A DNA stretch of 64,000 nucleotides from Calliopum simillimum (Eukaryota > Arthropoda > Insecta > Diptera > Lauxaniidae), in assembly GCA_951812925.1 (NCBI GenBank), contig OX638371.1, positions 33,392,101-33,456,100 of the forward strand. Direction: 5' to 3'. This document shows positions 6,016 to 53,660 of this stretch, one piece after another (the first letter of the stretch is position 1; every line of letters starts with the position of its first letter). The position numbers were made by a program, and so were the translations under genes. The notes beneath the pieces are model-generated. The model ran no database searches. It was not told the origin of the DNA and saw only the letters and a program-made list of their open reading frames with translations.

Positions 6016-7310
6016 CGTAGGCTGCTAGATATATTTCTGGCCTAGGCAACACTAAGTGTTGCTAGGTGCAATCTGACATTGCCATTGGAAAGTTTGACAT
6101 TTTTTAGCACAAACGTACTCAGAACGTTTTAACGTACGACCATCATTTGTGTTGTTTACAGTGACTTGAAAAAAATCAATTTGGCAAAAAAATGGAAATA
6201 ACTCGTAAACATTTTCGTGCGATAATTTTTCACAACTTTCGACGTGGATTATCACGACAAGAGTGCATCAATGAACTTAAATCTTTGTATGATGATGAAG
6301 CACTATCCTATAGCACTGTGAAAAACTGGTTTAATGAATTCAATCGTGACCGATGCTCGCTCAAAGACGAATTCCGTGAAGGTCGTCCAAAAACGGCCGT
6401 TGTGCCTGAGAACATTGATGCCGTGCGTGAACTGATAATGCAAGATCATCATGTGACACACCGTGAGATAGAAGCATCTTTGGGCATTAGTTCCACTCCA
6501 ATACATTCGATATTGCATGAACACCTGGCCGTAAAAATGGTTTTTTCTCGTTGGATCCCGCACAATTTGACAATCGCTCAAAAAAAGGCTCGTGTCGATT
6601 GGTGCAAAGAAATGTTGAAAAAATACGATCGCGGTGCTTCAAAAGACGTTTATAAGATTGTCACAGGTGACGACTCATGGATCTATGCGTATGAGCCCGA
6701 AACAAAACAGCAATCGACCGTGTGGGTCTTCAAAGACGAGCCAAATCCAACGAAAGTTGTTCGTGGAAGAAGCACTTCGAAGCAAATGGTCGCCTGTTTC
6801 TTCGGCAAAACTGGTCATGTGGCAACTGTTCCGCTTGAACAACGTAGGACGGTCAATTCTGAGTGGTACACCACAATTTGTTTGCCTGAAATCTTCGGAA
6901 AAATTCGAAAAACGAACAAGAGAAGACGAATCATTGTTCACCATGACAATGCGAGCTCTCACACATCGGCTCAAACCAGCGCCTTTTTGACCGGTCAAAA
7001 CGTCGAATTGATGGGTCATCCGCCGTACAGCCCTGATTTGGCACCCAATGACTTCTTTTTATTCCCGCACATAAAGAAAAAAATGCGTGGTCAACGATTT
7101 TCGTCGCCAGAAGATGCTGCGGAAGCGTTCAAAAACCATGTTTTGGAGGTGTCTCAATCGGAGTGGGAAAAGTGCTTCGACAATTGGTTTGAGCGCATGC
7201 AAAAGTGTATAAATCATGCTGGAGAATACTTTGAAACACAATAAAACCATTTTTGATGATAAATATTCGCATTTTCATTATTAGGCCAGAGATATATCTA
7301 GCAGCCCTCG
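6016..7310 (+). mobile_element. Complete mariner transposon
   Basis: 1295-bp element flanked by TA on both sides (6014-6015 and 7311-7312). Terminal inverted repeats of about 28 bp match closely: left CGTAGGCTGCTAGATATATT, right (reverse complement) CGAGGGCTGCTAGATATATC, both continuing into CTGGCCTA. It encloses one intact transposase gene. It inserted about 120 bp beyond the end of BEL element A. Confidence 0.93.
6192..7244 (+). CDS. Mariner transposase, full length
   Basis: 350 aa from an ATG preceded by AAAAAA, a good fly start context. Residues 1-110 hold two helix-turn-helix segments that bind the inverted repeats. The linker motif WIPHNL is at 121-126. The catalytic triad is Asp160 (VTGDDSW), Asp252 (HHDNASSH) and Asp287 (YSPDLAPNDFF) with 34 residues between the last two, the DD34D of mariner. 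No stop or frameshift interrupts it and the length matches active mariners (345-350 aa). It cuts and pastes DNA at TA sites. Activity cannot be judged from sequence alone, but all key residues are present. Confidence 0.95.
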   Translation: MEITRKHFRAIIFHNFRRGLSRQECINELKSLYDDEALSYSTVKNWFNEFNRDRCSLKDEFREGRPKTAVVPENIDAVRELIMQDHHVTHREIEASLGISSTPIHSILHEHLAVKMVFSRWIPHNLTIAQKKARVDWCKEMLKKYDRGASKDVYKIVTGDDSWIYAYEPETKQQSTVWVFKDEPNPTKVVRGRSTSKQMVACFFGKTGHVATVPLEQRRTVNSEWYTTICLPEIFGKIRKTNKRRRIIVHHDNASSHTSAQTSAFLTGQNVELMGHPPYSPDLAPNDFFLFPHIKKKMRGQRFSSPEDAAEAFKNHVLEVSQSEWEKCFDNWFERMQKCINHAGEYFETQ

Positions 7311-24520: not shown

Positions 24521-27500
24521 CTAAGCCGACGGAAGAACGACCAGCTTGACTACCGGCCGCGTAATGCAACCGCGCTCGGTTCGAATATCCGCAACGCGAA
24601 CTCGGTTATCGTCACCGGAATACGTTTTTAATATTCTACCTAATCGCCATTCATTCACGGGCATATTGTCATCTCTAACAATGACCAAATCATTTAAAGC
24701 AATGTCTTGCTGAGGTGTTTTCCATTTTACCCGCCGATGCATCTCCTTTAAATATTCATTTTTCCATCGATGGCAAAAATGTTGTTGCATAGCCTTGACC
24801 TTTTGCCAGCGATTGACAATAGTCATAGGCTGATCAGAGATCTCTGGCTCCGTTTGTGAGAGAAGCGGACCGCCGACCAAGAAATGGCCTGGCGTGAGAG
24901 GCTGAAAATCGTTAGGATTATCAGACATGGCGCTTAGCGGTCGTGAATTCAGACAAGATTCGATTCGACTTAGTACTGTTAAAAATTCTTCGAAAGTATA
25001 TCTCATACTTCCAGCCATTTTCCTAAAGTGAGTTTTGAAACTTTTTACTCCTGCTTCCCACAATCCTCCCATATGAGGAGCACCAGCTGGAATAAAATGC
25101 CACGACAACTCTTGGTGGGCATAGTGAGACAGCAGAGCGTCATGCGACTGGCTTAGAAACAACTTAAATTCTTTTTTAAGCACCTTTGACGCTCCAACAA
25201 AATTAGTTCCATTATCAGAGTATACCTTAGCTGGACAGCCGCGGCGCGCAACAAATCTAGAAAACGCTGCCAAAAACGTAGCGGTTGAGAGATCGCTAGT
25301 GGCTTCTAAATGTACTGCTTTCGTCGAAAAGCAAATGAAAAGGCAAACGTACCCTTTACTGATCCGACAAGACCTACCAATGTAGCTCTTTATGTCGAAG
25401 GGCCCCGCGAAATCAATACCAGTAGATGAAAATGGTCGAGAAATAACCGTTCGCTCAGCAGGAAGAGCAGCCATAATTTGAGTCTGCTGCTGTTTCTTGT
25501 GAATAACACAAGTTTTGCAATGGTGTAACGTTGTTTTTATTAGGTTTTTAGCCCGCGGGATCCAATATTCCATTCGAATAAGTCGGAGCATCAATTGGTT
25601 TCCCCCGTGAAGTGACATTTCATGGATATAGCGCACTAAGAGGCGAGTGAAGTGGCAATTATATGGCAATATAATCGGAAATCGTTCATCGTAAGTGAGC
25701 GTGGGTGACGAGGCCAGTCGTCCACCAACACGTAGCAATGCATCTGTATGCAGAAATGGGTTAAGAGACAAAATTGTGCTCTTAGAACCAATTATTTGTG
25801 CCGTTTCCAAATTGAAATATTCATCTGGAAAAGCAACTTTCTGGCATAACAGAATCAAACGATTTTTAACCCTCTTGATTTCAGCTTGTTCGAGCCGTTC
25901 AGATGCGTATGCAAAGGATGCACGCGTGTGTGGCTTGGTACGATCTATAAATCGGAAAACGTACGCCAGAACTCGCAAAGCACGTGGGAGCGATGAAAAA
26001 CGTTCCACAACATCTTCATAATTCGAAAAGTATGAAAAGTGAACCTGAATAGATTTTTGTTCGACGGAAGTCTCAAAAACTGAAGGCTGAGATTTATGTT
26101 GCCCAAAACCCTCACGAGAAAGCCACGAAGGCCCATGCCACCAGAGAGAATTAGCCACTATTTCTTGAGGAGTTACACCACGAGTAGCCAAGTCAGCAGG
26201 GTTTTCATCAGTGTCCACATGGAACCAATTGCGGGTGCCAACCTTTTCTGCTACTCGAGATACTCTATTGGCTACAAATGTTGTCCAGGTGCAAGGGGGC
26301 TTGCAGAGCCAGGCGAGAACGATTGTGGAGTCTGTCCAACAATATAATCGATGCCTATCAATATCTATGTGTGGTATCAAAGAGTCGACCATATCAGCAA
26401 GTAGAGTTGCACCACATAATTCAAGACGCGGTAGTGAAATTGTCTTGACAGGGGCAACTTTGCTTTTTGCGTAGAGCAAGTGACTAACAAACCAGTCACC
26501 TTGCTTGATGCGGATATAAATAGAAGCAGCATACGCCTTTTCGGAGGCATCACAAAAAGCGTGAAATTCGACTTCTGAAGTCGGCGAGTAACTCACGTAA
26601 CGTGGGATACGAATTTTTTCAATATCTTCGTATTCATGCAAGAATGATTGCCAAGTAAGGAGACTGTGCGGTGGGACATTTTCATCCCAATCAATTTCAT
26701 CCAACCAGATTCGTTGCATCAGAATTTTTGCTGCCACCACTACTGGCGCCAGCCAACCTGCAGGATCAAATAGTTGGGCGATAATTGATAAGACTTCCCG
26801 TTTTGTGTACGACGACTTGACTTCGAGACGTTTTACTGTAAAATAGAAGGAATCAGATGTGGCATTCCAACGAACCCCCAAGGTTTTCGCGCAACTTTCA
26901 TCTTCTAACTTTAAAAAGTTCTCGCGCAGAAGATGTTCTACAGGTAGACCCGCTAAAATGCATGCTGCATTGGCTGTCCACTTTCGCATAGCGAACCCTG
27001 CAGAGTCAAGAGCAGATATCAGCTCATTTCTAGCTTTTAAGGCAGTGTCCACATCGTGAGCGCCCGCTAAAGCGTCGTCAACATATGTGAAGTGCCGAAG
27101 TATTTGAGCAGCAAGAGGAAATTGCTGCTGAACATCATCAGCCAATTGCAGCATGGTTCTTATAGCTAGATATGGTGCACAATTGACACCGAAAGTTACC
27201 GTTTTTAATTCGAAGTCTTGAACATCATCATCAGGTGAACTTCTAAAAAGAATTCGTTGGTAAACGGAGTGCCTTGGATCCACAAGAATCTGGCGATACA
27301 TTTGTTGGATATCACCATTGAAAACGTATTTAAAAAAACGCCATTTCAAAACCAGAAGCGTCAAGTCAGCCTGGAGAGTCGGACCCACGTATAAAATATC
27401 ATTTAAGCTCACTCCATTGGAGGTTGGACTTGACGCGTTGAAAACTACTCGAACTTTAGTGGTTGTCCTTTCTGGTTTTATGACCGCGTGATGCGGCAAG

Positions 27501-29737
27501 TAGTAATGGGATGGCGAGATCTCGAATTTCGGCGGAGTAATATTCTTCATGTGGTCAAGCTTAAGATACTCCCTAACCACTTCGTCATATTGCACTTTGA
27601 GTTCTGGCTTTTTACTCAATCGAGCTTCACCGTTAAGAAATTGCTTAAAGGCAATGCCTCGGGAAAATCCTAATTTAATTTCGTCGGGGTAGCCAATTTT
27701 AAACGGCAAAGTGACTATATAGCGACCTTTTTCGTCTCGTTTAGTCGTTTTCGTATAATTTTCCTCACAAAACCTATCAGCTTGAGTTAAAAATTGCTTT
27801 TTAGGAAGCTCCTCCAACTCCCAAAAGCGTGCGATCTGCTTGTCGACCGCAACCTCACTAAAATGAGTGAGGCAAGTGGTGAAACTGGAGATCTCTTTAC
27901 GAGGCATAGGGCCCGTAAATATCCAGCCGAAAACAGTCTCTTGGGCAAGAAGCGACCCAAGGATATTTCTTTGAAGGCCATCGAGAATTATGGCGGGGTA
28001 CAGATCGCCACCGATCAGTACATCTTTTTGACCACTGTGGAAAAAGTGTGGATCTGCCAATTGAAAATCAGGCAGAGTACTAAACAACGCAGGGTCCATC
28101 GAAACAGAGGGCAAATTACCAGTCAACCGTGAAAGGACAAAAGCCGTGGCTTCAATCTGGAACTGCCTATTTCTGGGGGAGCTGAGGATCAGATCACAAG
28201 CTTGCGAAACCTGTGCAGACACTGCGTTATTTAAACCTGAAACTTGAGCATTGACTGCTCGAGTAGGGAGCTTCAAAAGCTTCTGCAAACGCTCTGAGAC
28301 AAACGTGCCTTCAGAGCCAGAGTCGATAAGCGCTCTGGTTGTGTACGCTGCTCCTAAGTGACATACGGTCACCATTGCTGTACCAAGCAACACGTGCTTG
28401 GTACTAGAAGCAAAGCAGTTTTGGATGTCGTTATTAGTGGACTGTAATTGCGTTGAATGAGATTGAGTGTTAGACCCCGGGGGATTGGGTCGCGAATTCG
28501 ACTTGCTTGAGTCCACACTCAAAGCAGGGGCAGAGGCTGGTGTCGAATTGCGATGCAAAAGCGAATTGTGACGTTGTTTGCACGTTGCACAAGTGTATAC
28601 ACTCCTGCACTCTTTCACCTCATGTGAGTTCGCTAAGCAGTTGATGCAAAAGTGATGCTTGCGAACAACTGCTAAACGCTGTTTAGCATCCATCTTTAGA
28701 AATTGAGGGCAATAACGCAAGGCATGTTGCTCCGACGAACAAATTTTGCACTTGGTCGAAGTTATCTTAACCTGATAATTATTAAGCCGCTTACTAGTAT
28801 TAGCGCTTTGACCTGAAGAGGATGGCATAGCAACTTGTTTGGGAACCGTACCACTTGAGCTGCGAATGTCAGAAACAGTTTCGAGAGTCTGAAACCGGCT
28901 TGTCAAAAAAGTATCGAGATCTGTCCATTTCGGGATATCATTTTTGCTTTTGATGGACTGCTCCCACAACGAGAGCGTGACCACAGGCAATCGTGTGGAA
29001 CATAGGTACACCAGGATTGCATCCCAATTCGAGATATCAACCTTGTGTGTTTGAAGCGCAAAAATGCAACTGTTGATATCACGTTGGAGGTTTTTGAGCT
29101 CAGTGCCAGACTCCTTTAGAACTTGAGGCAGATTAAAAAGGACTTTCAGCTGGCTGTTTACTAAGATACGTTTATTTTCGTATCTATCAGACAAGTTTTG
29201 CCATGCTTGAACGAAACCCTCATTTGTCAAAGGAGACTTCCGCACAATCTCCTTTGCTTCACCACGTGTTTTTAAATTTAAGTGATAAAGTTTTTCTACT
29301 GAAGATAGCCGCAAGTTATTTATATAAATGGCCGTGAACATGTCCCTAAAGGACGGCCATGAGAGGTAATCTCCATTGAAAACCTCAGTATCGCACGGAG
29401 GTACAGGCATATTGTGACCCGATATAGGCATATGCTCTGTATCCACTGATCGCTTAGGGGGCTTTTCTTGTGAAAGCTCCGAAATTGTACCTGCTACCCT
29501 AATATAAGATTGGTAGCAAGTGCGATACCTATTCTTCAGAACTTCAAGGTTACTTTTATCCTCAGCAAATTTTTCCAGACTTGCTTCATATGCAGACTTT
29601 ACTTTTCTCCACAGGCATTTAAGCTCTTCAAGTTGAGCAGCCAAGGAGAAAACGGGATGGGATTCAACCTCATTGAAATCTGTCTCAAATTCAATAAGTG
29701 AATCTGAGAAGCGAATAAATGTCTTCAAGTCTGACAT
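24521..29737 (-). CDS. BEL/Pao gag-pol polyprotein (element B)
   Basis: About 1738 aa from ATG 29737; the frame is open slightly further back but only to a TTG. Order: coiled-coil and DUF1759-type Gag (1-290), three Cys/His knuckles (330-395; CKICSSEQHALRYC, CINCLANSHEVKEC, CATCKQRH), aspartic protease with active-site LIDSGS (Asp about 472), reverse transcriptase with YVDD (about 885-888), A17/RNase H-like region, integrase HHCC domain, integrase core (IDFAGP, SDNGTNF, GGLWEAG) and DUF5641 tail. It forms particles, copies the RNA and integrates the DNA. It is uninterrupted and all signature residues are present, so it may be active. Confidence 0.97.
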   Translation of the reverse strand: MSDLKTFIRFSDSLIEFETDFNEVESHPVFSLAAQLEELKCLWRKVKSAYEASLEKFAEDKSNLEVLKNRYRTCYQSYIRVAGTISELSQEKPPKRSVDTEHMPISGHNMPVPPCDTEVFNGDYLSWPSFRDMFTAIYINNLRLSSVEKLYHLNLKTRGEAKEIVRKSPLTNEGFVQAWQNLSDRYENKRILVNSQLKVLFNLPQVLKESGTELKNLQRDINSCIFALQTHKVDISNWDAILVYLCSTRLPVVTLSLWEQSIKSKNDIPKWTDLDTFLTSRFQTLETVSDIRSSSGTVPKQVAMPSSSGQSANTSKRLNNYQVKITSTKCKICSSEQHALRYCPQFLKMDAKQRLAVVRKHHFCINCLANSHEVKECRSVYTCATCKQRHNSLLHRNSTPASAPALSVDSSKSNSRPNPPGSNTQSHSTQLQSTNNDIQNCFASSTKHVLLGTAMVTVCHLGAAYTTRALIDSGSEGTFVSERLQKLLKLPTRAVNAQVSGLNNAVSAQVSQACDLILSSPRNRQFQIEATAFVLSRLTGNLPSVSMDPALFSTLPDFQLADPHFFHSGQKDVLIGGDLYPAIILDGLQRNILGSLLAQETVFGWIFTGPMPRKEISSFTTCLTHFSEVAVDKQIARFWELEELPKKQFLTQADRFCEENYTKTTKRDEKGRYIVTLPFKIGYPDEIKLGFSRGIAFKQFLNGEARLSKKPELKVQYDEVVREYLKLDHMKNITPPKFEISPSHYYLPHHAVIKPERTTTKVRVVFNASSPTSNGVSLNDILYVGPTLQADLTLLVLKWRFFKYVFNGDIQQMYRQILVDPRHSVYQRILFRSSPDDDVQDFELKTVTFGVNCAPYLAIRTMLQLADDVQQQFPLAAQILRHFTYVDDALAGAHDVDTALKARNELISALDSAGFAMRKWTANAACILAGLPVEHLLRENFLKLEDESCAKTLGVRWNATSDSFYFTVKRLEVKSSYTKREVLSIIAQLFDPAGWLAPVVVAAKILMQRIWLDEIDWDENVPPHSLLTWQSFLHEYEDIEKIRIPRYVSYSPTSEVEFHAFCDASEKAYAASIYIRIKQGDWFVSHLLYAKSKVAPVKTISLPRLELCGATLLADMVDSLIPHIDIDRHRLYCWTDSTIVLAWLCKPPCTWTTFVANRVSRVAEKVGTRNWFHVDTDENPADLATRGVTPQEIVANSLWWHGPSWLSREGFGQHKSQPSVFETSVEQKSIQVHFSYFSNYEDVVERFSSLPRALRVLAYVFRFIDRTKPHTRASFAYASERLEQAEIKRVKNRLILLCQKVAFPDEYFNLETAQIIGSKSTILSLNPFLHTDALLRVGGRLASSPTLTYDERFPIILPYNCHFTRLLVRYIHEMSLHGGNQLMLRLIRMEYWIPRAKNLIKTTLHHCKTCVIHKKQQQTQIMAALPAERTVISRPFSSTGIDFAGPFDIKSYIGRSCRISKGYVCLFICFSTKAVHLEATSDLSTATFLAAFSRFVARRGCPAKVYSDNGTNFVGASKVLKKEFKLFLSQSHDALLSHYAHQELSWHFIPAGAPHMGGLWEAGVKSFKTHFRKMAGSMRYTFEEFLTVLSRIESCLNSRPLSAMSDNPNDFQPLTPGHFLVGGPLLSQTEPEISDQPMTIVNRWQKVKAMQQHFCHRWKNEYLKEMHRRVKWKTPQQDIALNDLVIVRDDNMPVNEWRLGRILKTYSGDDNRVRVADIRTERGCITRPVVKLVVLPSA

Positions 29738-31213
29738 GTTAAATTTGCTATTGGTTTCAAAAATCAAAAATTATTTCAAAACTTTATCACCAACAACAAA
29801 AAAAAAAAAAAAAAAAATGCTTAAAAGTTGTCCTTTTATCTAGAAATCCACAAAAACCTATTTAAAATAATTCTGTATACAAAACAAAATATTTTGTATA
29901 CCAGTGTTAATGTATATATATACAAGAAAACACGGTCAAGAACCAAATAAAATTATTTTAAGTAAATGTGGGCACAAAAACAAGTATTCTGTAAGAAAAA
30001 ATATTTTGTACACAAAAATATCTTGTATACAAGTGTAAATGTATTTGTGTAATATTAAAATCCAAAGAACAACAACCAAATATGATTTTTTTCCCTTAAA
30101 TTTGCATACACAAAAACTCTATTTTGTACACAAGTGTAATTTTTATTTAAAAATTTGTGTTTCGTCCCACTGTGCAGGTTTCTGTACTTTCTCACTTCTG
30201 AAAAGTACAAAAACCACAACAAGAGAATTCACAAATTTTCAAATATGTATTGTATGTATGTATGTAAAAAAAAATGCTGATAGAAACTCTGCATAAGCAA
30301 ACTAAAAAATTTCACATATGTACGTATGTATTTACATACCTATGCGAGAGAACAATTTTCATGCAAAAGGTAGCGTTTTACTTTTGTAAAAGCCTAATCG
30401 TTACAACAACAAAGGGAATGCAAAAATATGTTTTTTTTTTTTTTTTAGGAGTGCAGTTAGACTGCCTGTATGCCAACACTTGTAACCTGCTGTGTTGTTG
30501 TAACTGCACACAGGTTATTACCCTCCACTTTTATCAAAAAAAAAAAGAACCGATTGCCAAAAATATGAAAAAAAAAAAAAAAATAACGCGATCTATGTAA
30601 AGTCTTTCTAACGTTAAAAAAAATAAAAAATCTTCCGCTTTACATATATTCAAAAAAAGTATGGCAAAGTACAATCATATATTCATATAGCAGTATATAT
30701 AAACGCACAAACTTCGTTTTTATGAATTTTAAATTCACTTTGAAAAACCAAGAAATTTAGTCGAAAAGAACCAAACCAAAATTCCTGCGGAATCCGAACC
30801 GAGACACATCAAAAATTTCACTCTTTCAGTTTCTAAACGTGATTTAATTCAAATCACCTACCTGGATTTTGTTTGTAAGAAAACAAAATATACCTCCAGA
30901 AGACCAAAAACTCGAAATTTCAGATGGTGGGAAATGCTGCTTCTGACGTTGTAGCGCAACAAAGTACCTCTTTTTGTTTTTTATATAAATGTTAATTTCT
31001 TCTTAAGTAAAAAGAACACTTTACCACCTTGTTTTTTATCTTTTTGAGTTTTTTTTTTTTAAGCTTTTAGTATTTTGTGACAAACAAAATTTCACAAAAT
31101 GTTTTTTTTTTTTTCCGAAGACACTCGCGGCGTTTATTCTTTTAAAGAAAAAATTAAAAATTAAAGTTTTAATTAATAGCACGGCACTTAAAAACCGGTA
31201 CGAGAAGGACCAA
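29738..31213 (-). promoter_or_regulatory. Leader of BEL element B with splice donor and primer site
   Basis: 1.48-kb AT-rich leader without an ORF. Two bases inside the 5' LTR the sense strand reads TGGTCCTTCTCGTACCGG (31195-31212), positioned as a primer binding site; I cannot assign the tRNA. At 30855-30864 the sense strand reads CAGGTAGGTG, a strong splice donor (cut between 30862 and 30861). Joined to the acceptor at 24474 it would remove about 6.4 kb and all of gag-pol. Splicing is inferred. Confidence 0.5.
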
Positions 31214-34922: not shown

Positions 34923-36690
34923 AATTTTTTTTTTTAATTGAAATTTAAATTCGTGTATCTTCAATAAAAATATTTTCACCTTTGACCTGAGTTTAAGTTT
35001 GCCCAACTTCATTTTGAATAAACTCGTTAAGGTATCTGTTTTATATATGAAAATAATAAAATTGAAGATGTTTTTCTTCATTTTTATTATTTTTTCTGCT
35101 CAATGTAGGTTTTTGAAATATTATGGAGTTATTTTTAAGTTTACGCATTTTGTGCGGAAACAGTCTATGTGTATTCTTCAAATGCATGTAAAGTCGCTAG
35201 AAAAATTGCATAAATACTATAAGTTCGAAATAAAATTCACTAAAGAGATTAAAAACTTACTAGTTTTATCGACGATGTCCCTAAATATGCATAATTGACA
35301 GTGGGGTATTTAAAATTATTATTATCACTTATATTTATATAGGATATAACCTCTTTAAGAGTTTAGTTTTGAAAAAATAGTATAGTATGCACCAGATTAG
35401 CTCAGAAAAAAAAAAAAATTTCATTACGTCACTATTCTCAGATATTCTTGAAACGAAGGGCTTAATGCGATGTCTTCAGCCACTCAGTGAAATAAAAAAA
35501 AATAAAATCAATCGCTGCGGTATGATACGCTATCAAATATTTAATCCGCTGTTTTCAAGTTGTTCAGTTACAACAAAAAAAAAAAAAAGGAAAAACATAA
35601 GTTCGGAACAATGAGTAGAGTCAATTAATTCATTGGCACGTAACACCAATTAAACTTGGTTAAAACAAAAACAACAACAACACAAACATCACATAAAAGC
35701 TGCATCGAATGCTACAACAATGTTCGATCGGTTCATTATTTGCACGCGTGTTGCATGTCAATCAAATTGGCGATGCCTGCGATAGACGGAAAGACTCCAC
35801 ACACCACACACATGAAAGTTGGCTGGCTGACTGCACTTGCCATCGTGGTGGCACACGTCGTCCATGTGAATTAACCAACTGCATCTACTTCCATGAGCAC
35901 AGCGTACGAGTGGTGCAACATAAAACAATAAATAAAGCAAACAGATTAAATCCAATGAACACAAAACAAATACTGAGCCGGCTTAGTGACCCATATCGAA
36001 AACCCTACGCCTACGCGTCTAGCACGGCTAAAATAAGACCAAAAACAACAACAACAACAAGAAAAAAAAGAGTTTTGCTTTAACGTACAAATGAACACGA
36101 GCGCAAGTGAGGATTTTGTGCGTTAGGTCTGTAGGTGCCCTTATGCTTTCGTTGTTCCCACAACGTCCGTAACGAGTTGAACGAGTTTTCGTTGAATTGT
36201 TTGGGTTGGTATCTTTACTACTTAAATGCACTTTTTTTTTAATTTTTATGTAAATCAAATTGGCCAGCTAATAAAAGTAGTGATACACTCAAAGCGAAGG
36301 GCTACTAAATTCAAATGAACAACGATATAGAAATGGGAAAATCCTCCAAAAACATTTCTTTAAAAATAGATGACGGAAAAAACGACCGCAGAAGTCTATG
36401 AAAATGTGCAGAAAGCAATTGATCCAGAGTAAGCAGTGTCTTTTCGAGGGCCTTTGTTATATTTAGCGACAGTAAGCGTCTGTATTTGGACGCCAGGTTA
36501 GCGGTAGACCGCATAAAACTGCTCAAACTGGTCTGGTCATTAATGGTTGAGCCAGCCACCATATTCAACAGACGTGTTACGACTTACTCCGTTCAAACGA
36601 GCTGGTGCTGACAGTCATGCTCCAATAATATCGTCCGACATAGCTTTGCACACATGAGAAATTCTAACATCCCAATGGGGAATGGAGCGC
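34923..36690. other. Apparently single-copy interval
   Basis: AT-rich at first. 35640-36260 has more even composition and CAACAACAACA runs, typical of fly intronic or intergenic DNA. No ORF has a recognised domain or splice context. Confidence 0.35.
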
Positions 36691-36785
36691 ATCAATAGTG
36701 CTTCTAAAGCGCTCTAAAGCAGCAGTGAAGCGCATCTCTCTCGTTGCCAAAAGCGCTGAAATTAACATTGACAGGTCATTGGAAC

Positions 36786-36940
36786 GAAGCGCTTCGCTCT
36801 CGCTACCAGAAATGCTCTTTGGATGCGCATCGCTCTCGCATCCAGAAATGCTGTTTGGATGCGCATCGCTCTTGCTACCAGAAATGCTCTTTGGAAGCGC
36901 ATCGCTCTCGCATTCAGAAATGCTCTTTGGATGCTTTTTG
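36786..36940. repeat. 36-bp minisatellite, left block
   Basis: About four units of 36 bp with a core AAATGCTCTTTGGATGCGCA followed by TCGCTCTCGCATCCAG. Because 36 is a multiple of three, frames stay open on both strands; this is not evidence of coding. Confidence 0.85.
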
Positions 36941-36959
36941 GATGACAATAAAAATATTT

Positions 36960-37245
36960 AAAAAATTAATTTTTAATTGAAATTTTACGTCTTTCGTCAA
37001 GACACATCAGACTATTATTTTTTTTTGATGTTATTATAATTATTTTCATTTTACTGCTCGTATATTAATTCTAATTGAAAAATTGCAAGTTGAAAACTTT
37101 TGTGTTAGGTCTGAGCCGGAGTTGAACCGAGGACCTCTTGGTTGCTACAACTCTCAATCGCTGTGCCAGTCGCTAGACCACTGCTCTACCATCGCGCTCT
37201 TACGAAGACGACTTATTGATTTATTTTGTTTTGTACGTTAATACG
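36960..37245 (-). ncRNA. Decayed tRNA-like/hammerhead element
   Basis: Minus-strand relative of the 52209-53390 unit. A tRNA-like head has B-box GGTTCAACTCC (37118-37128) and upstream GGTAGAGCAGTGGTCTAGCG. Then come the shared AAAAGTTTTCAACTTGCA and TTTTTCAATTA blocks. At 36987-37015 is ATAGTCTGATG with TGTCTTGACGAAAGAC and GTAAAA. Stem II survives, but the last core A is U and GAAA is broken, so the ribozyme should be dead. Minisatellite blocks flank it on both sides. Confidence 0.65.
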
Positions 37246-37256
37246 AGACCGAAAGC

Positions 37257-37420
37257 GCTTCGTTCTCGCTACCAGAAATGCTCTTTGGATGCGCATCGCT
37301 CTCGCTTCCAGAAATGCTCTTTGGATGCGCATCGCTCTCGCTACCAGAAATGCTCTTTGGATGCGCATCGCTCTCACATTCAGAAATGCTCTTTGGATGC
37401 GCTTCGCTCTCGCTACCTAT
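37257..37420. repeat. 36-bp minisatellite, right block
   Basis: About four to five units of the same 36-bp repeat and in the same orientation as the left block, with degenerate pieces to about 37510. The decayed tRNA-like/hammerhead element lies between the blocks. Confidence 0.85.
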
Positions 37421-37510
37421 AGCGCAGAAATTATGCGCATACAAATCAGCTCTTTAGATGCGAGAAGGACGCGCATCGCTATTGCATCTTGGGGATGCGC
37501 ATCGAAATTT

Positions 37511-38194
37511 TCTGTTGGGATATTCTTAAAATACACGTTAAAAAAATATCGATATAATCGATTTTTTAAGTTTTCGTCACACTTGTGTTAAATTGACATA
37601 TTAAATAACACGATCCTTACAACTGAGGTGTATTATGTATTATGCAGAATATTGTGACGAATATTTTCGTCGAAAAATTTAACCCTCATAAACTACACAT
37701 TTATACCCTTTGCTTAAATAAGTGCAAAAATGACACCTAAAACGAAGGATATATGTACTGAGTCAATGTGTATTATAGAATTATTTGCTATAAAATTTCA
37801 CCGCTGGGCGTTAATGAGTTAAAGTACTCCATAAAAATATTCTGCGGAAAATTTCACTAGGGGTCACCAAAGCCGAGAAAAGGCTTTAACTTAAGAAAAA
37901 TTCGTCAAGAATGTAATAAATGTGCAATGTGATAAGTCTTCATTGATTTTGACGATTTTTTGGCTTTCGCGATGAAATTTCGAATTTTTAGTGTTGGGCA
38001 GCTATTAGTGAAATTTTGCAGGAAATATTTCTGTAGTACATACTGAGTTAATATTCCCCTGTTTTAGGTGTAATTTTTGTACCTCACTACTAAAAAGCTT
38101 TGGAGAAAAAACCGACGTTCTCAATCAAGTTGAGAATGGTTTCAAGAAGTATAAGGGACATTATCATTTAAAAATCAAGTACCTGGAGACCGAT
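37511..38194. other. Interval with a short shared segment
   Basis: No gene. A short piece near 38045-38090 (TATTCCCCTGTTTTAGGTGT) recurs near 49870, and lies outside the main repeat copies. Confidence 0.35.
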
Positions 38195-40365: not shown

Positions 40366-43300
40366 TTAGATTTGGACCCCGCCATGGTAGGTTTTCAGCT
40401 CGCTGAGATGTGCCCTTCTCATCCTCCTGTCCCCATCGCGCTTGAGCTGCACGATCACAGGAGACACGAATCCCACGACTTGGTATGGGCCGTCGTATTT
40501 CGGCGCGATTTTCGCCGCAAAACTGTCGATGGCCTTGGACAACGGGTGCTGTCTCACCAGAACTAATTCCCCCACTTTTGGTTTCCACGGTCGCCTCCTC
40601 AAGTTGTAGTGCCGGGCTTGGTCTGTGGCGGCTTGAGAGAGACGATGCTTCACCAGCTTGAACACTTCCTTCAACCTCACCGCTCGGTCCGTCGGATCTT
40701 GGCTTGTTGTACCGGTCCCTGTGGTGACTTCGTCGTACAGCGTCTTGGGCAAACGAGGTTCACGGCCTTGCGTGAGGAATGCGGGGCTGTACCCCGTAGA
40801 CTCGGACTTGCTAGTGTTGATGGCTAACGAGATTTCGGGAAGGTTCTCATCCCAATTGCGCTGTTGATTGTCGGCTAGCTGCGCTATCATTGTTTTGACG
40901 GTTCGGTTAGCCCGTTCGGTGGGGTTTTCCTGAGGCGTATATGGTGCTGTTAACTGATGACGAACCCCGATTTCCTCCAGGAACCGTTTCACAATGCGGC
41001 TAGTAAACTGAGCTCCATTGTCGGTGATGAGCACTTTAGGAACCCCATACCTCGCAACCACTCGTTCCCTGAGTGCCTTTACTACGCCCACCGCAGTAGC
41101 TCTGCGCATCGGGACCAGCTCGGTCCACTTCGAAAACCGATCGAAAAGTACTAGCAGAGTCGTGTTTCCATGCTTGGACCTAGGTAGTGGCCCGACAAAA
41201 TCGGCGGACACTGTCGCCCATGGTTCCTCGGGGATCGTGGTGAGCATTTCCCCAGCCGGTGCCTGCTGACTAGTCTTGTAGCGTTGGCATGAGTCACAGC
41301 CGCGTACGTAGCGACTAATGTCGCGGAACATTCCTGGCCAATAGTACCGATCGGTTATTCTTCCGATGGTTTTCCGGATGCCGAGGTGGCCAGCGCTAGG
41401 ACTGTCGTGATTTTCCTGCATTACCCGCGTGCGAAGTGGAGTTGGTACACAGAGCTTCCATGTTGCACAGTCCTCGTCGCCTGTGTGCTGTGGAAGGTGT
41501 CGATATAGCTGCCCGTCGACGGTGACGTAATCTGGGAACTTGTCGGGATGCCTCGCCATTTCCATCAATCTCTTCTGGAGCCATGAGCAGCTCGGTCCAT
41601 CGGCGCTTGTTGTTGTTAGCTGCAGTACCTCGCATGGCTGTCGAGACAGGGCATCTGCAACCACGTTGTTTTTGCCTTTCCGGTATTGCACTTCAAAGTT
41701 ATGCTGCTGCAACTCGAGGGCCCATCTGGCGATCCTGCCCGTCGGATTTTCGATGGCATTCAGCCACTTAAGGGACAAGTGGTCCGTGATAACTATGAAC
41801 CGGTAGCCTTCTAAGTAGGGACGCATCTTCCGGATACCCCACACTATGGCCAGGCACTCTTTCTCGGTGGGTGAGTAATTTTTCTCGGCGGCGTTCAGAT
41901 GACGACTAGCGTATGAAATTACCCGCTCTCCACCGTCGATTTCCTGTGTGAGCACCGCCCCTAGTCCAAAGTCACTAGCATCAGTTTGTAGGGTGAACGT
42001 TTTCGTGAAGTCCGGACAAGCCAACACCGGGGCCTCAGTCAGTTTTCGCTTCATCGTCTCGAAGGCCTGCTGCTGCTCAGTGGTCCATTTGAAGTGTTTG
42101 CCCTTCTTTAGTAGGCACGTCAGTGGTTGCACAATTCCCGCGAAATCAGGTACAAACCGGCGGTACCACGAGGCGATTCCCAGGAAACGTCGTACTTCGC
42201 GCACGTTGGATGGTGGCTTCAAGTCCCGTACAGCGGCCACCTTGTCCGGGTCGGTCTTTATACCCTCGCCACTGACGACATGCCCCAAATACTTGGTCTC
42301 CGACTTGAAAAACTCGCACTTATCTGGATTGATCCTCAGGTTCGCCGCACGGAGTCTTCGGAAGACCTCGCGAAGATTCCTCAGGTGCTCGTCGAGGGTG
42401 GACCCAATGACCACAATGTCGTCGAGATAGGCGAACGCGTGCGGCTCCAGTTCAGGTCCTATTACCTGGTCGAGTGCCCGCTGGAAGGTCGCCGGAGCCG
42501 AGTGAAGTCCAAACGGCATGACACGCCACTGGTACAGTCCACGGCCGGGTACCGTGAAGGCCGTATATTTTTTGCTCGTCTCGGCCATCGGTATCTGCCA
42601 ATAACCGTCTTTCAGATCCAGGCTGCTCACATACTTGGCATTTCGTAGCCGATCAAGGATATGGTTGATCCTTGGTAACGGGTAAGCGTCGGGTATAGAC
42701 TTACTGTTGAGTTGACGATAGTCTATACATAGACGCCATTTTCCCGTTTTCTTCCTTACCAGCACAATTGGAGCGCTAAATGGGCTGTTTGATGGTTCAA
42801 TACAACCTTTTGCTAGCAAGTTATTTATTTCCTCGTCTATGATGGCCTGCATGGCTGGGTTTCGTGGAAAGTACCGTTGCTTTAGCGGCCGCTCGTCCGC
42901 CATCACGATGGTATGCTCTGCGATGGGGGTTACCCCGTGCAAGCCCTCGAACTGTGGTAGCTCCTCCGCCAGAAATTCGTAAATTTTCTGTTGGGTCCTC
43001 GTTCTTGGCACACCATCCAACTGGTCGCACTCCTGTATAATTGCAGCATCCGTGGTGGCCGCGGCCACAGGGCCTCCGGTGCGTTCCTCCATGCATTCCC
43101 TTGGAAACTGGATGGTCGACTTACCACACGTGATTGTCGCCCCGATGAGGCACAGGTAATCGATGCCGAGTACAATTGTGTCGGTGGCCTGTGGCAACAA
43201 AATAAACGTAACCTGGTCACATCGGTCATCCATGCGTGTTTCGGCCACCACGGCCTCATGAAGTTGTACCATCGAACCGTCTGCCATTGTCACATACCCT

Positions 43301-43520
43301 TGATGTGCTATTCGTCTATAGTTGCCTCCCAGACTCTCCGTAAAATCCTGCCGCATGAAACTCCGGGTGGCACCGGTGTCTATTGTTGCGGCCACGGGTA
43401 CCCCACCAATGGTTACATTCGCGAAGACCCGCTGCTGGTTGAATGCTAGTGAACTTAATGTTGGGGAGGGTTGGTCCCGTAGGAGCCCGCCACCCCCCTG
43501 TCCTGGCGTGCTCCGTTGCT
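40366..43520 (-). CDS. Gypsy pol (protease, RT, RNase H, integrase)
   Basis: There is no ATG start. The frame is -1 to gag, is open from the slippery site near 43521 and ends at 40366; from a GTG at 43395 it is 1009 aa. Residues counted from there: protease TIDTGAT (Asp6), RT with LDLKDG (Asp260) and YLDD (323-326), RNase H Asp residues near 472, 538 and 581, integrase HHCC (about 663-703), core Asp732, Asp792 and Glu near 827 (D,D-35-E type), then a GPY/F-like module (DGPYQVVGF). No chromodomain. All catalytic residues are present and no stop interrupts the frame. Confidence 0.96.
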
Positions 43521-44669
43521 GTTTCCCGATGACCCGCAGCAGTTAATTGTTCTTGTCCCCAACCGCCCACATTCCCAGCAAAACAGTCGCTGTGGGTTGC
43601 GGCACTCGCGGCTCCAGTGGCCTTCTTCCCCGCATCGCCGACAGGCCGAATGCGGGTTTATTGGTGCTGATTGTGATGGCGGGGAGGGTTGCAGGCGGGC
43701 GTGATGGTCGTTTTGGGCCGCTGGTGGGCCTCGTGGTCCTGGGCTTCGCGACTGGTTCGACGGGAGTGAAAAACTTACTCGTGGCTGTGACCGGGCTTGA
43801 GGTCGCGGAGTTGAAGCTCTCTCGGGTTCCAGTCGTGGCAAGCTCTCAAGATCGTCGGCCAGTTCCATGAGGTCGCGTAGATCAGTAAAGTCGCGCCGAC
43901 GAATATACCACTGGTATTCAGGTAAAGAGTTACGGAATATGCGCTCGACTTTCTGTTCCTCCGTTAGGTTGGTGTGTCGCATTAAATTTTGTAGAGCCAG
44001 AACGAAATCCTTGAAACTTTCCCTGGGCTTCTGCATCCGACCACGCACCTCGTCATCCAATCGTTCGAAGAAGCGAGCCGGAAGGAAGAAAGTCAGGAAA
44101 TCGTGCCTGAACGCGTTCCACGAAGTCCAGTGCTTGTTGTTGTTCCTGTACCAGATCAGCGCCCTATCCCGTAGCACCTCGGGCATCGCTCGTGGCATGA
44201 ACTTCACGTCGATCGCATAGGCCTCGCACAGCTCTTCGACCCTTTCCATAAACTCTAACGGATCCTTGCTGCCATCAAACTTCAGACCCCACTTCCGCAC
44301 GTGCTCCATGGCGGCGGCGTAGTTAATTGTGGGTCCCTCTGGCTCGTGTGTGACTTGAAGCGTCGGCGGTACGTTGAGTCGCAGACCCGGTGGTGTCGCC
44401 GTTGGGAGTATATCGACCTGTCCCTTTTGTGCCTGTTCACTGCAGCTTGCCTCGTCTTTCTTTGCCGGGGTCGATGGTTTCTTGTGTTTCGCCTGTAGCT
44501 CCAGGAAGCGTTGTGAAAATTCCGCCTTCGCCTCGGATAAGGCTGCGGCAAACCGTCTCCTTAGGTCCTCCACCGAACCTGTCGCGTCAAACCCGAACTC
44601 GTTCGCGTATGCGATCAGATCCTCTTTCCGAAGAGAGTAGGCCCATCCAACGCTTAATGCGCCTTCCAT
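43455..44669 (-). CDS. Gypsy gag
   Basis: 404 aa from ATG 44669. The N-terminus (about 10-45) looks like a SAP-type helix pair. Residues about 135-270 match the retrotransposon Gag capsid fold (ALIWYRNN, FRHDFLTFFLP, FKDFVLALQNLM). A Pro/Ser/Arg linker follows. The first zinc knuckle CRRCGEEGHWSREC is normal. The second, CWECGRLGTRTINC, has Thr where His is expected. It forms the particle and packages RNA. Near the 3' end the sequence holds a frameshift signal into pol. Confidence 0.95.
   Translation of the reverse strand: MEGALSVGWAYSLRKEDLIAYANEFGFDATGSVEDLRRRFAAALSEAKAEFSQRFLELQAKHKKPSTPAKKDEASCSEQAQKGQVDILPTATPPGLRLNVPPTLQVTHEPEGPTINYAAAMEHVRKWGLKFDGSKDPLEFMERVEELCEAYAIDVKFMPRAMPEVLRDRALIWYRNNNKHWTSWNAFRHDFLTFFLPARFFERLDDEVRGRMQKPRESFKDFVLALQNLMRHTNLTEEQKVERIFRNSLPEYQWYIRRRDFTDLRDLMELADDLESLPRLEPERASTPRPQARSQPRVSFSLPSNQSRSPGPRGPPAAQNDHHARLQPSPPSQSAPINPHSACRRCGEEGHWSRECRNPQRLFCWECGRLGTRTINCCGSSGNSNGARQDRGVAGSYGTNPPQH
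43482..43527 (-). promoter_or_regulatory. -1 ribosomal frameshift signal, gag to pol
   Basis: The slippery heptamer G GGA AAC (43527-43521) is in phase with gag, and slipping back one base enters the pol frame exactly. After a 6-base spacer (AGCAAC) comes a two-part stem: GGAGC/GCTCC around CGCCA/TGGCG with a G-rich loop (43514-43482). Both parts of a classical -1 signal are present. Use of the signal is inferred. Confidence 0.8.
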
Positions 44670-51562: not shown

Positions 51563-52208
51563 ATTACCTATTGCCTATTACTTATTGCTTATTACTAATT
51601 ACTTATTACCTATTACTTGTTACAAATTGCTTATTACTAATTACTCTTTACTAAATACTCATTACTGATTGCTAATTACTTATTAGTTATAACTTATTGC
51701 TTATTTCTTATTACTACTTACTTGTTACTTATTGCTTATTCCTCATTACTTATTGCTTATAACTTATTGCTTATTACTACTTACTTATTACTTGTTGCTT
51801 ATTGCTTATTCCTCGTTACAAATTACTTTTTACTTATTACTTATTGCTTATTGCTTATTACTTATTACTTATTACTTATTACTTATTACTTATTACTTAT
51901 TACTTATTACTTATTACTTATTACTTATTACTTATTACTTATTACTTATTACTTATTACTTATTACTTATTACTTATTACTTATTACTTATTACTTATTA
52001 CTTATTACTTATTACTTATTACTTATTACTTATTAGTTATTACTTATTGCTTACTACTTATTACTTTTTGCTTATTGCTTATTACTTATAACTTATTGCT
52101 TATTACTTATTACTTATTACTTATTACTTATTACTTATTACTTATTACTTATTACTTATTACTTATTACTTATTACTTATTACTTATTACTTATTACTTA
52201 TTACTTAT
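51563..52208. repeat. (ATTACTT)n microsatellite, left block
   Basis: Seven-base repeat, degenerate from 51563 to about 51840 and nearly pure to 52208. Long Leu/Ile/Thr/Tyr-rich frames here are products of the repeat, not genes. The hammerhead array follows directly. Confidence 0.95.
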
Positions 52209-52326
52209 TTTATTTAATTGAACTTTTAGTCATATATTTGCAAAGATCGATTTACATATAAATCTATCAATGCATTTTTCTAACACATAATTATGACAAA
52301 TCAAGGAACGGATTAAAAACACGGCT

Positions 52327-52373
52327 ATAGTGACATATGTTTCGTCTTTCGCCACAAAGACTCATCAGACTAT
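52327..52373 (-). ncRNA. Type I hammerhead ribozyme, copy 1
   Basis: Minus strand. Stem I ATAGT/ACTAT (5 bp), core CTGATGA, stem II GTCTTT/AAAGAC (6 bp, loop GTGGCG), core GAA, then stem III ACATATGT (A-U and C-G with an ATAT loop) and C as the cleavage base. All invariant positions (CUGAUGA, GAA, A15.1-U16.1, H17) are met. Predicted cut between 52332 and 52331. The tiny stem III is like that of hammerheads in animal repeats, which often act as dimers. Confidence 0.9.
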
Positions 52374-52460
52374 TTTTGTTGTAATTATAATTATATTTAT
52401 TTTACTAAATTAATTATAATTGAAAAATTGCAAGTTTGAAAACTTTTTGTGTTTTTGGTC

Positions 52461-52529
52461 TGGGCGGGAGACGAACCAAGGATCTCCAGGTTGGTAGCAG
52501 AAGTCGTTACCACTGCACCAGCCTTGCCC
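52461..52529 (-). ncRNA. tRNA-like head, copy 1
   Basis: 69 bases on the minus strand, tRNA length. The ends GGGC/GCCC pair like an acceptor stem. A-box TGGTGCAGTGGTAACG and B-box GGTTCGTCTCC (52467-52477) have normal spacing. It could act as an internal pol III promoter. It lies about 90 bases upstream of the hammerhead. Confidence 0.65.
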
Positions 52530-52740
52530 GGCTGCGAAGCCGTCTTTTTGCCAGTTTTATTTGTGTGTTAATACGTATTGATATATCATAATTGTTGTTT
52601 TTTGTGTTATTTATTGATATTTGGTATAGTTGTTCCTTTGGAACAAATTCAATACCGATTGCAGGTGTTTCCACCTTATCAGGGCGTGTTCTCCCAAATA
52701 ACTTTAAGAATTTTTTTTTAAGTGTGTTACTTAATGACAT
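52507..52740 (-). CDS. 77-codon ORF of the hammerhead unit
   Basis: Starts at ATG 52740 and ends in the tRNA-like head. It begins MSLSNTLKKKFLKLFGRTRP, has a middle part with KVETPAIGIEFVPKEQLYQI, and a basic C-terminus (KRRLRSRAR). The inverted copy keeps the start (MSLSNTLKKFLKL at 53352) before running into the microsatellite. No family recognised. It might be a real small basic protein or a chance frame. Confidence 0.35.
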   Translation of the reverse strand: MSLSNTLKKKFLKLFGRTRPDKVETPAIGIEFVPKEQLYQISINNTKNNNYDISIRINTQIKLAKRRLRSRARLVQW

Positions 52741-52876
52741 TTTATGTTGAAAAATGATTTTATTTAATTGAACTTTTAGTCATATATTTGCAAAGATCGA
52801 TTTACATATAAATCTATCAATGCATTTTTCTAACACATAATTATGACAAATCAAGGAACGGATTAAAAACACGGCT

Positions 52877-52923
52877 ATAGTGACATATGTTTCGTCTTTC
52901 GCCACAAAGACTCATCAGACTAT
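52877..52923 (-). ncRNA. Type I hammerhead ribozyme, copy 2
   Basis: Sequence identical by eye to copy 1. Predicted cut between 52882 and 52881. With copy 1 it would release a 550-nt monomer from a minus-strand transcript. Confidence 0.9.
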
Positions 52924-53010
52924 TTTTGTTGTAATTATAATTATATTTATTTTACTAAATTAATTATAATTGAAAAATTGCAAGTTTGAAAACTTTTTGT
53001 GTTTTTGGTC

Positions 53011-53079
53011 TGGGCGGGAGACGAACCAAGGATCTCCAGGTTGGTAGCAGAAGTCGTTACCACTGCACCAGCCTTGCCC
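53011..53079 (-). ncRNA. tRNA-like head, copy 2
   Basis: Same as 52461-52529, with B-box at 53017-53027. Directly beyond it (about 53091) the array flips into the inverted copy. Confidence 0.65.
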
Positions 53080-53165
53080 GGCTGCGAAGCAAAAAGTTTT
53101 CAAACTTGCAATTTTTCAATTATAATTAATTTAGTAAAATAAATATAATTATAATTACAACAAAA

Positions 53166-53212
53166 ATAGTCTGATGAGTCTTTGTGGCGAAAGACGAAAC
53201 TTATGTCACTAT
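53166..53212 (+). ncRNA. Type I hammerhead ribozyme, inverted copy 3
   Basis: Plus strand, same design. Stem III reads ACTTATGT, one base different from the other copies, keeping the A-U and C-G pairs. All core bases are intact. The cleavage base is C at 53207. This copy has no tRNA-like head because the inversion starts downstream of it. Confidence 0.88.
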
Positions 53213-53390
53213 AGCCGTGTTTTTAATCCGTTCCTTGATTTGTCATAATTATGTGTTAGAAAAAATGCATTGATAGATTTATATGTAAATCGATCTTTGC
53301 AAAAATATATGACTAAAAGTTCAATTAAATAAAATCATTTTTCAACATAAAATGTCATTAAGTAACACACTTAAAAAATTCTTAAAGTTA

Positions 53391-53660
53391 TTACTTATTA
53401 CTTATTGCTTACTGCTTATTGCTTACTGCTTATTGCTTATTACTTATTGCTTATTACTTTTTTCTTATTACTTATTAGTTTTTGCTTATTGCTTATTACT
53501 TATACTCATTACTTATTGCTTATTGCTTATTACTTATTTCTTATTGCTTATTACTTATTACTTATATCCTATTACTTATTACTTAATACTTATTACTAAT
53601 CACTTATTACTCATTACTGATTACTTATTGCTTATTACTTTTTACTTATTACTATTTATT
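53391..53660. repeat. (ATTACTT)n microsatellite, right block
   Basis: Degenerate ATTACTT/ATTGCTT repeats continuing in the same orientation as the left block, then fading into T-rich sequence with CACTTTTAACTTTT motifs to about 53870. Confidence 0.9.

Follow-up and report, generated by a model that had tools for sequence, protein, structure and literature searches.

The genome of the fly Calliopum simillimum contains many copies of a short tandem unit with a type I hammerhead motif, and the insertions of this unit have the anatomy of Penelope-like elements (PLEs), with outer ends at two fixed sites of the unit, A and B, that are paired with each other in all 23 insertions with an inverted arm and both ends scored as A or B. 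This PLE anatomy of retrozyme insertions is what is new here; it comes from a study of 40 loci, the best of 1,428 candidates. We favour, with a probability of about two in three, the interpretation that the unit is a non-autonomous non-LTR retrozyme moved by PLE enzymes, since insertion scars of the Penelope-like type give a hint at the moving enzyme.

Layout of the insertion in the window

The window is the whole 64,000-nt stretch of DNA that was analysed. A head-to-head insertion occupies positions 52207 to 53392 within a (TATTACT)n microsatellite, which is why a target duplication cannot be told in this case. With the unit numbered u1 to u550 along the minus strand starting at 52756, the insertion consists of a full 550 bp unit (52207–52756, minus strand, u550 to u1), a 5′-truncated tandem unit (52757–53090, minus strand, u217–550) and an inverted arm on the plus strand (53090–53392), in which u308–550 is followed by a tail composed of u1–60. 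Its borders are end A at 52207 and an inverted end B at 53392, and the copy is thus of the type inv-B/A. A preliminary description of this DNA had proposed two units in tandem that define a 550-nt monomer from cut to cut. The monomer stands, and the tandem turns out to be a full unit plus a partial one, but the third piece, an inverted partial unit, had not been recognised as part of the element. The unit had no match in a phage collection or in viral contigs.

Copy number and array structure

A 42-nt hammerhead query allowing up to three mismatches retrieved 2,185 copies (1,110 + 1,075) from the 690-Mb genome, while the same query read backwards retrieved none in the same search. A lack of further genomic copies with a conserved core had been named beforehand as half of what would speak against the proposal; such copies are abundant. 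The complete unit gave at least 184 matches in the best 40 of 1,428 first-look candidate places. The 40 loci studied, 39 fetched with flanks of ~1 kb plus the window copy, are the best matches to the query unit and were not drawn at random. In total they contain 86 full units, as many as 7 per locus, arranged in tandem, with a main length of about 545–550 bp and a GC content of 32%.

Units of different loci differ by a mean of only 4.5 substitutions, which indicates that the copies are young, and those of the same locus by 2.5. Within-locus differences amounted to 3.05 columns compared to 7.44 when locus labels were permuted, with none of 1000 permutations giving a value as low (the composite loci L049 and L056 were left out of this test). 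Copying of an array from a single template would lead to such low divergence within a locus, and so would later homogenisation. In the two composite loci, arrays of a ~96% identical subfamily lie beside units that are 98–99% identical to the window unit. An assembly gap of 200 N is present in L049, L062 and L066.

Outer ends at two fixed sites

The outer ends of the insertions are of the RNA 3′ type and lie at A (u~550) or B (u~54–60), two sites ~55 nt apart. An inverted left arm together with two ends scored as A or B is found in 23 of the 40 loci, and A is paired with B in every one of them (15 inv-B/A and 8 inv-A/B, no A/A or B/B; Fisher p = 2e-6 on 15 and 8), the ~55-nt tail being present on exactly one end. 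Twenty-one of the 23 are free of gaps, and without the gap-bearing L062 and L066 the counts become 13 and 8 with p about 5e-6, calculated by hand. Flanking words of 12–19 nt, a few of them perhaps including letters of the element, are shared in these 23 loci, and the 14 flank words of at least 10 nt have an AT content of 91% (19 of the 23 loci parsed). Two loci, L047 and L069, have flanks in common and may represent one event. A stem-loop with an A/C loop, TTAAGT-AACAC-ACTTAA, sits between sites A and B of the unit (52718–52734 on the minus strand of the window; obtained by folding, its position by eye).

These ends bear directly on two other explanations. A tRNA-derived SINE of the ordinary kind, mobilised by a LINE, or a satellite generated by unequal crossing-over, in either case with an inert hammerhead, would account for the tandem units seen in many loci and for tRNA-like boxes that are better than chance (see below). 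Neither would lead one to expect insertions scattered over the chromosomes that are built head to head and have two fixed 3′ ends, nor short direct repeats flanking insertions whose inspected ends carry no terminal A tail, and this end structure already makes the idea very improbable. For rotifer PLEs, self-priming or template switching on the antisense template has been proposed as the origin of head-to-head arms and is favoured by palindromes at the inverted junctions (PMC3846280). The same process appears unlikely for the fly insertions, where the outer borders lie at distinct sites, A and B, beside duplicated target in 23 of 23 cases, as fits two separate initiations.

Other loci count against a retrozyme moved by PLE enzymes. 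Twelve of the 40 have no inverted arm; their shared flanks measure 5–12 nt, with right end A in 4 and B in 8. Five more have other scored left ends (L034, L043, L057, L045 and L049): inspection of the ends gives inv-A/B for L045, and L049, with site A at both outer ends, is a composite of two subfamilies with a 200-N gap. L070, a PLE copy of the same genome, also speaks against this reading: on the left, its inverted arm stops within the coding frame, at neither A nor B.

Proposed mechanism and comparison with PLEs

According to the mechanism that we propose, a transcript spanning one or more units would be cut by the type I hammerhead at GUC^ACUAU, and the resulting monomer of ~545–550 nt would probably close into a circle. 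Next, AT-rich DNA would be cut by a Penelope-like reverse transcriptase/GIY-YIG protein, with the strands nicked a dozen or more bp apart. Priming would use RNA site A on one target strand and RNA site B on the other. Copying would run toward the 5′ end of the RNA, at times for several rounds, and the two antisense cDNAs would end up joined head to head.

PLEs are described with two direct pseudo-LTRs (pLTRs), a further pLTR that is inverted head to head, partial tandems and an optional tail of 31 bp on one inverted pLTR (PMC3846280). A PLE protein was shown to cut AT-rich target DNA on both strands and to extend them, with reverse transcription starting at two internal sites, mainly at an AC-rich stem-loop 3′ of the hammerhead, the tail being the stretch between the two start sites (PMC11167929). 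The fly insertions share with PLEs the head-to-head inverted terminal repeats, the optional one-sided tail, the partial tandems and the target site duplication (TSD; PMC3846280), as well as the AT-rich target and, as proposed here, internal starts of reverse transcription close to a stem-loop 3′ of the hammerhead (PMC11167929). In most points, anatomy and proposed mechanism match published PLEs. In contrast to PLEs the fly unit is without an RT/GIY-YIG frame, its tail is longer (~55 nt versus 30–40) and so are its shared flanks (12–19 nt versus PLE TSDs of 8–10 bp). With purified PLE protein, top and bottom strands were alike in their start site (PMC11167929), which does not favour a coupled use of A and B.

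A more far-reaching interpretation would regard such animal retrozymes as PLE satellites, with one circle copied simultaneously from both cut strands, an obligate use of A with B, and a pol III head that feeds the circle in the second family described below. We offer this tentatively and at somewhat less than even odds. If true, it would explain why only one PLE end carries the tail, and also the head-to-head arrays.

Penelope-like elements of the same genome

A GIY-YIG profile matched the genome at 51 places, which may take in bacterial and host genes. Two GIY-YIG frames of 612 and 622 aa (C183 and C104 of G000) are located on other, apparently small contigs and possibly encode bacterial UvrC of a symbiont or contaminant. 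Three frames were confirmed to have both RT and GIY-YIG domains. One of these, of 841 aa, has 49% identity to a Drosophila virilis protein, and its other named relatives, among the matches listed, come from flies or mosquitoes, in support of a fly host. In the PLE family of this frame, represented by L070 and L071, a hammerhead-like motif lies 105 nt upstream of end A, and in L070 end B follows another 29 nt past end A (ends placed by eye). The order hammerhead, A, B is thus common to this family and to the retrozyme unit. The L071 copy is inv-B/A with a shared flank of ~13 nt (ends by eye), and the right end of the L070 copy is B. A comparison with PLEs and retrozymes had been made in the preliminary description and proved apt; the Penelope-type ends themselves, the feature that says most about the mechanism, had not been seen. 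Downstream of two other PLE frames (L083 and L084) there is a hammerhead-like motif, CTGATGAGGTCAACGATTTGTTGACGAAACGTC, practically without a stem III.

The shared succession of hammerhead, A, tail and B, and the occurrence of PLE pLTRs as both direct and inverted repeats (PMC3846280), could also mean that the unit is no separate element but the pseudo-LTR of an autonomous PLE whose coding copies escaped detection. We consider this improbable. Consecutive full units on the same strand are separated by 0–16 bp in 42 of 43 pairs from the 40 loci, such that no coding interior is seen between them, and the one exception, 553 bp apart in L049, extends across the assembly gap. Furthermore, none of 16 sequences 3′ of PLE frames revealed a helper PLE with sequence in common with the unit, the strong matches to the unit sitting in a nested unrelated repeat, and a second family with a different sequence repeats the layout of the first.

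The hammerhead motif

The three type I hammerheads of the window (52327–52373 and 52877–52923 on the minus strand, and 53166–53212 on the plus strand in the inverted arm) each have a 5-bp stem I, CTGATGA, GAAAC and GTC ahead of the cut, and all have the same 6-bp stem II, GTCTTT/AAAGAC, closed by the loop GTGGCG. In the unit the motif corresponds to u384–430 with a predicted cut after u425, which places the cuts between 52332 and 52331, between 52882 and 52881 and, in the inverted arm, between 53207 and 53208. The three complete cores reported earlier were recovered by a motif scan (stem II ≥4, stem I ≥5, stem III ≥2) that gave no match in 100 Markov-1 sequences modelled on the window, and the first of the cuts agrees with the one proposed before. 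The downstream cleavage product is predicted to begin with ACUAUAGCC. Stem III reads ACUUAUGU in the plus copy. In the minus copies it is ACAUAUGU, which can pair over 2 bp around a 4-nt loop or, when two molecules dimerise, over 4 bp as a self-complementary stem; because stem III is so short, the ribozyme may need dimerisation or a protein partner.

The hammerhead models of Rfam, a check suggested in the preliminary description, do match the three window copies, but all scores are below the gathering thresholds (21.5 bits with Hammerhead_1 for both minus copies, gathering 34, and 23.7 with Hammerhead_3 for the plus copy, gathering 48.5). Folded as a circle, the unit reaches −120.1 kcal/mol versus −87.0 (sd 6.6) in 60 shuffles. 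The hammerhead fold is not the minimum-energy structure, and forcing it costs 1.8 kcal/mol for the motif alone and 6.7 in the circle. This cost would fit a ribozyme that is blocked or assisted by a dimer or a protein, and would equally fit a poor ribozyme.

One pattern describes the hammerhead as complete in 83 of the 86 full units (81 identical and 2 that differ by a single change, located in a loop or in stem III), with 3 left unmatched. When each of the 40 loci is represented by one unit, the hammerhead shows 0.043 variants per site compared to 0.271 for the whole unit; the tRNA-like part has 0.053 and the AT-rich spacer 0.084. The spacer being also quiet, the low variation of the hammerhead alone is no proof of selection.

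One might argue that the PLE machinery copies linear multimers, the hammerhead being a passenger and a circle not being involved. The PLE hammerhead is indeed dispensable for insertion in vitro, where PAc hammerhead mutants insert and no read starts or ends at the cut site (PMC11167929), and the fold is energetically weak here. We nevertheless regard this as rather unlikely, because the hammerhead is complete in nearly all units and re-paired in other families, and because arrays of 7 near-identical units would be easier to obtain from a circle. Copying of a circular monomer by PLE enzymes is the interpretation that we retain.

The tRNA-like head and the small ORF

A tRNA-like segment, u225–300, with box A at u237–248 and box B at u280–290, is located at 52457–52532 and in a second copy at 53007–53082, both on the minus strand. 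The tRNA-like head of the preliminary description is real inasmuch as boxes A and B have 2 mismatches in total in the main family, a quality equalled in 1 of 2000 shuffles, but it is weak: default ARAGORN and Rfam called no tRNA in the segment, and ARAGORN with relaxed thresholds gave low scores of 30 for the main family and 33, as tRNA-Ser, for the second family, and none for the nested repeat, which are not taken as evidence here. A run of four T residues (u315–318) and one of five (u330–334) lie downstream of box B and upstream of the hammerhead, so that a normal pol III transcript should end short of the ribozyme. The earlier idea of pol III transcription is therefore weakened for the whole main unit, where the head may act as a promoter if transcripts read through the T runs, or may be a relic, but the second family has no such runs at this place. 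SMalpha of Schistosoma has a pol III promoter.

The small ORF noted before exists as a 77-aa frame (52507–52740, minus strand). It is intact in just 2 of the 86 full units and found no match in a Pfam search, which rules it out as a conserved gene.

A second family with the same layout

A search pattern that barred the start of the main stem II gave 46 matches versus 1 in the control, many of them variants of the main family. In two other families stem II is changed yet still paired, to GGTTAC/GTAACC with one bulged G in L075, where the loop is that of the main family, and to GGCTAT/ATAGCC in L076 and L077, the latter with one mismatch; in stem I, AGU/ACU is replaced by GGU/ACC. All of these pairings were judged by eye since the alignment misplaces stem II.

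The family of L076 gave at least 100 matches in the best 40 of 1,014 first-look candidate places, with a tandem spacing of about 595–612 bp in the pairs worked out and with inverted pieces present. In L076 box A (no mismatch) lies 95 nt and box B (1 mismatch) 41 nt upstream of the hammerhead, with no run of four T residues between the boxes and the hammerhead. End A is located 78 nt past the cut and end B 65 nt beyond, as judged by eye from three copies, of which L076 holds two and L077 one. The L077 copy is more truncated and retains box B, box A being gone. The order of tRNA-like head, hammerhead, A and B is thus found again in a second family, whose sequence is different.

Relation to known elements

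Retrozyme-like repeats with type I hammerheads also occur in insects (PMC7229834). Type III hammerheads are reported from dipterans (PMC7936874); the motifs of the fly units are of type I. The non-LTR retrozymes of animals, as described in PMC7229834, resemble the fly unit in having a hammerhead of type I, short units in tandem, a low GC content, many copies and shared flanks of more than 4 bp, and in lacking a conserved ORF. Their circles of ~170–400 nt and tandem repeats of 150–450 bp are set against about 545–550 bp in the fly, which differs further by the tRNA-like segment and by the PLE-type A/B ends and the inverted arm, features that animal retrozymes are not known to have. PLEs have been proposed as helpers of such retrozymes on the grounds that both have type I hammerheads and tandem copies and that they occur together (PMC7229834).

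SMalpha, compared by description alone, is likewise a small SINE-like repeat with a hammerhead of type I; its length is about 335 bp, less than that of the fly unit (PMC8490949). Helenus TRIMs are also non-autonomous, and their repeated terminal unit contains a tRNA-like segment that may be of the pol III type, but they are LTR elements with PBS and PPT, and the parts of that report considered here mention no hammerhead (PMC10886601). The LTR retrozymes of plants are small and non-autonomous as well and give rise to hammerhead circles, but differ from the fly unit by their LTR type, type III hammerheads, PBS and PPT (PMC4918200, PMC7761336). Among the open-access papers listed in literature searches, titles and the first lines of abstracts contained neither a fly retrozyme with a tRNA-like head nor retrozyme ends of the PLE type.

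Retrozymes seem to be promoterless, and those of animals are described as being without a motif that would reveal the helper retrotransposon (PMC7761336). The fly elements supply candidates for both, an internal promoter and a helper motif. What is added here, an insertion footprint, two fixed start sites with one per side and a candidate internal promoter, makes the question of the helper testable, and a young element with a high copy number in a fly makes tests in vivo practical.

A nested repeat and other elements of the window

Two PLE copies, L086 and L079, seemed to have a pLTR containing a tRNA-like and hammerhead module. This was rejected, as the module belongs to a nested, dispersed repeat of ~850 bp whose insertion places differ between the two PLEs (judged by eye). 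Its window copy lies at 36671–37519 on the minus strand (CCCAACAG..CCATTGGG). The repeat has internal minisatellites of about 36 bp and possibly a 2-bp target duplication. Near 37015–36981 it carries a module of tRNA-like segment, spacer and hammerhead with a broken core (CTGATGTG, GTAAAA). The L086 and L079 copies of the repeat have 81% and 79% identity to u261–420 of the main unit. A query taken from it gave 1,524 first-look candidates, and these may include copies of the main family. Elsewhere in the window there are open frames of a Pao-type element (24521–29770, minus strand), of a second LTR-type retrotransposon (40366–43542, minus strand) and of a mariner-like transposase (6165–7244, plus strand).
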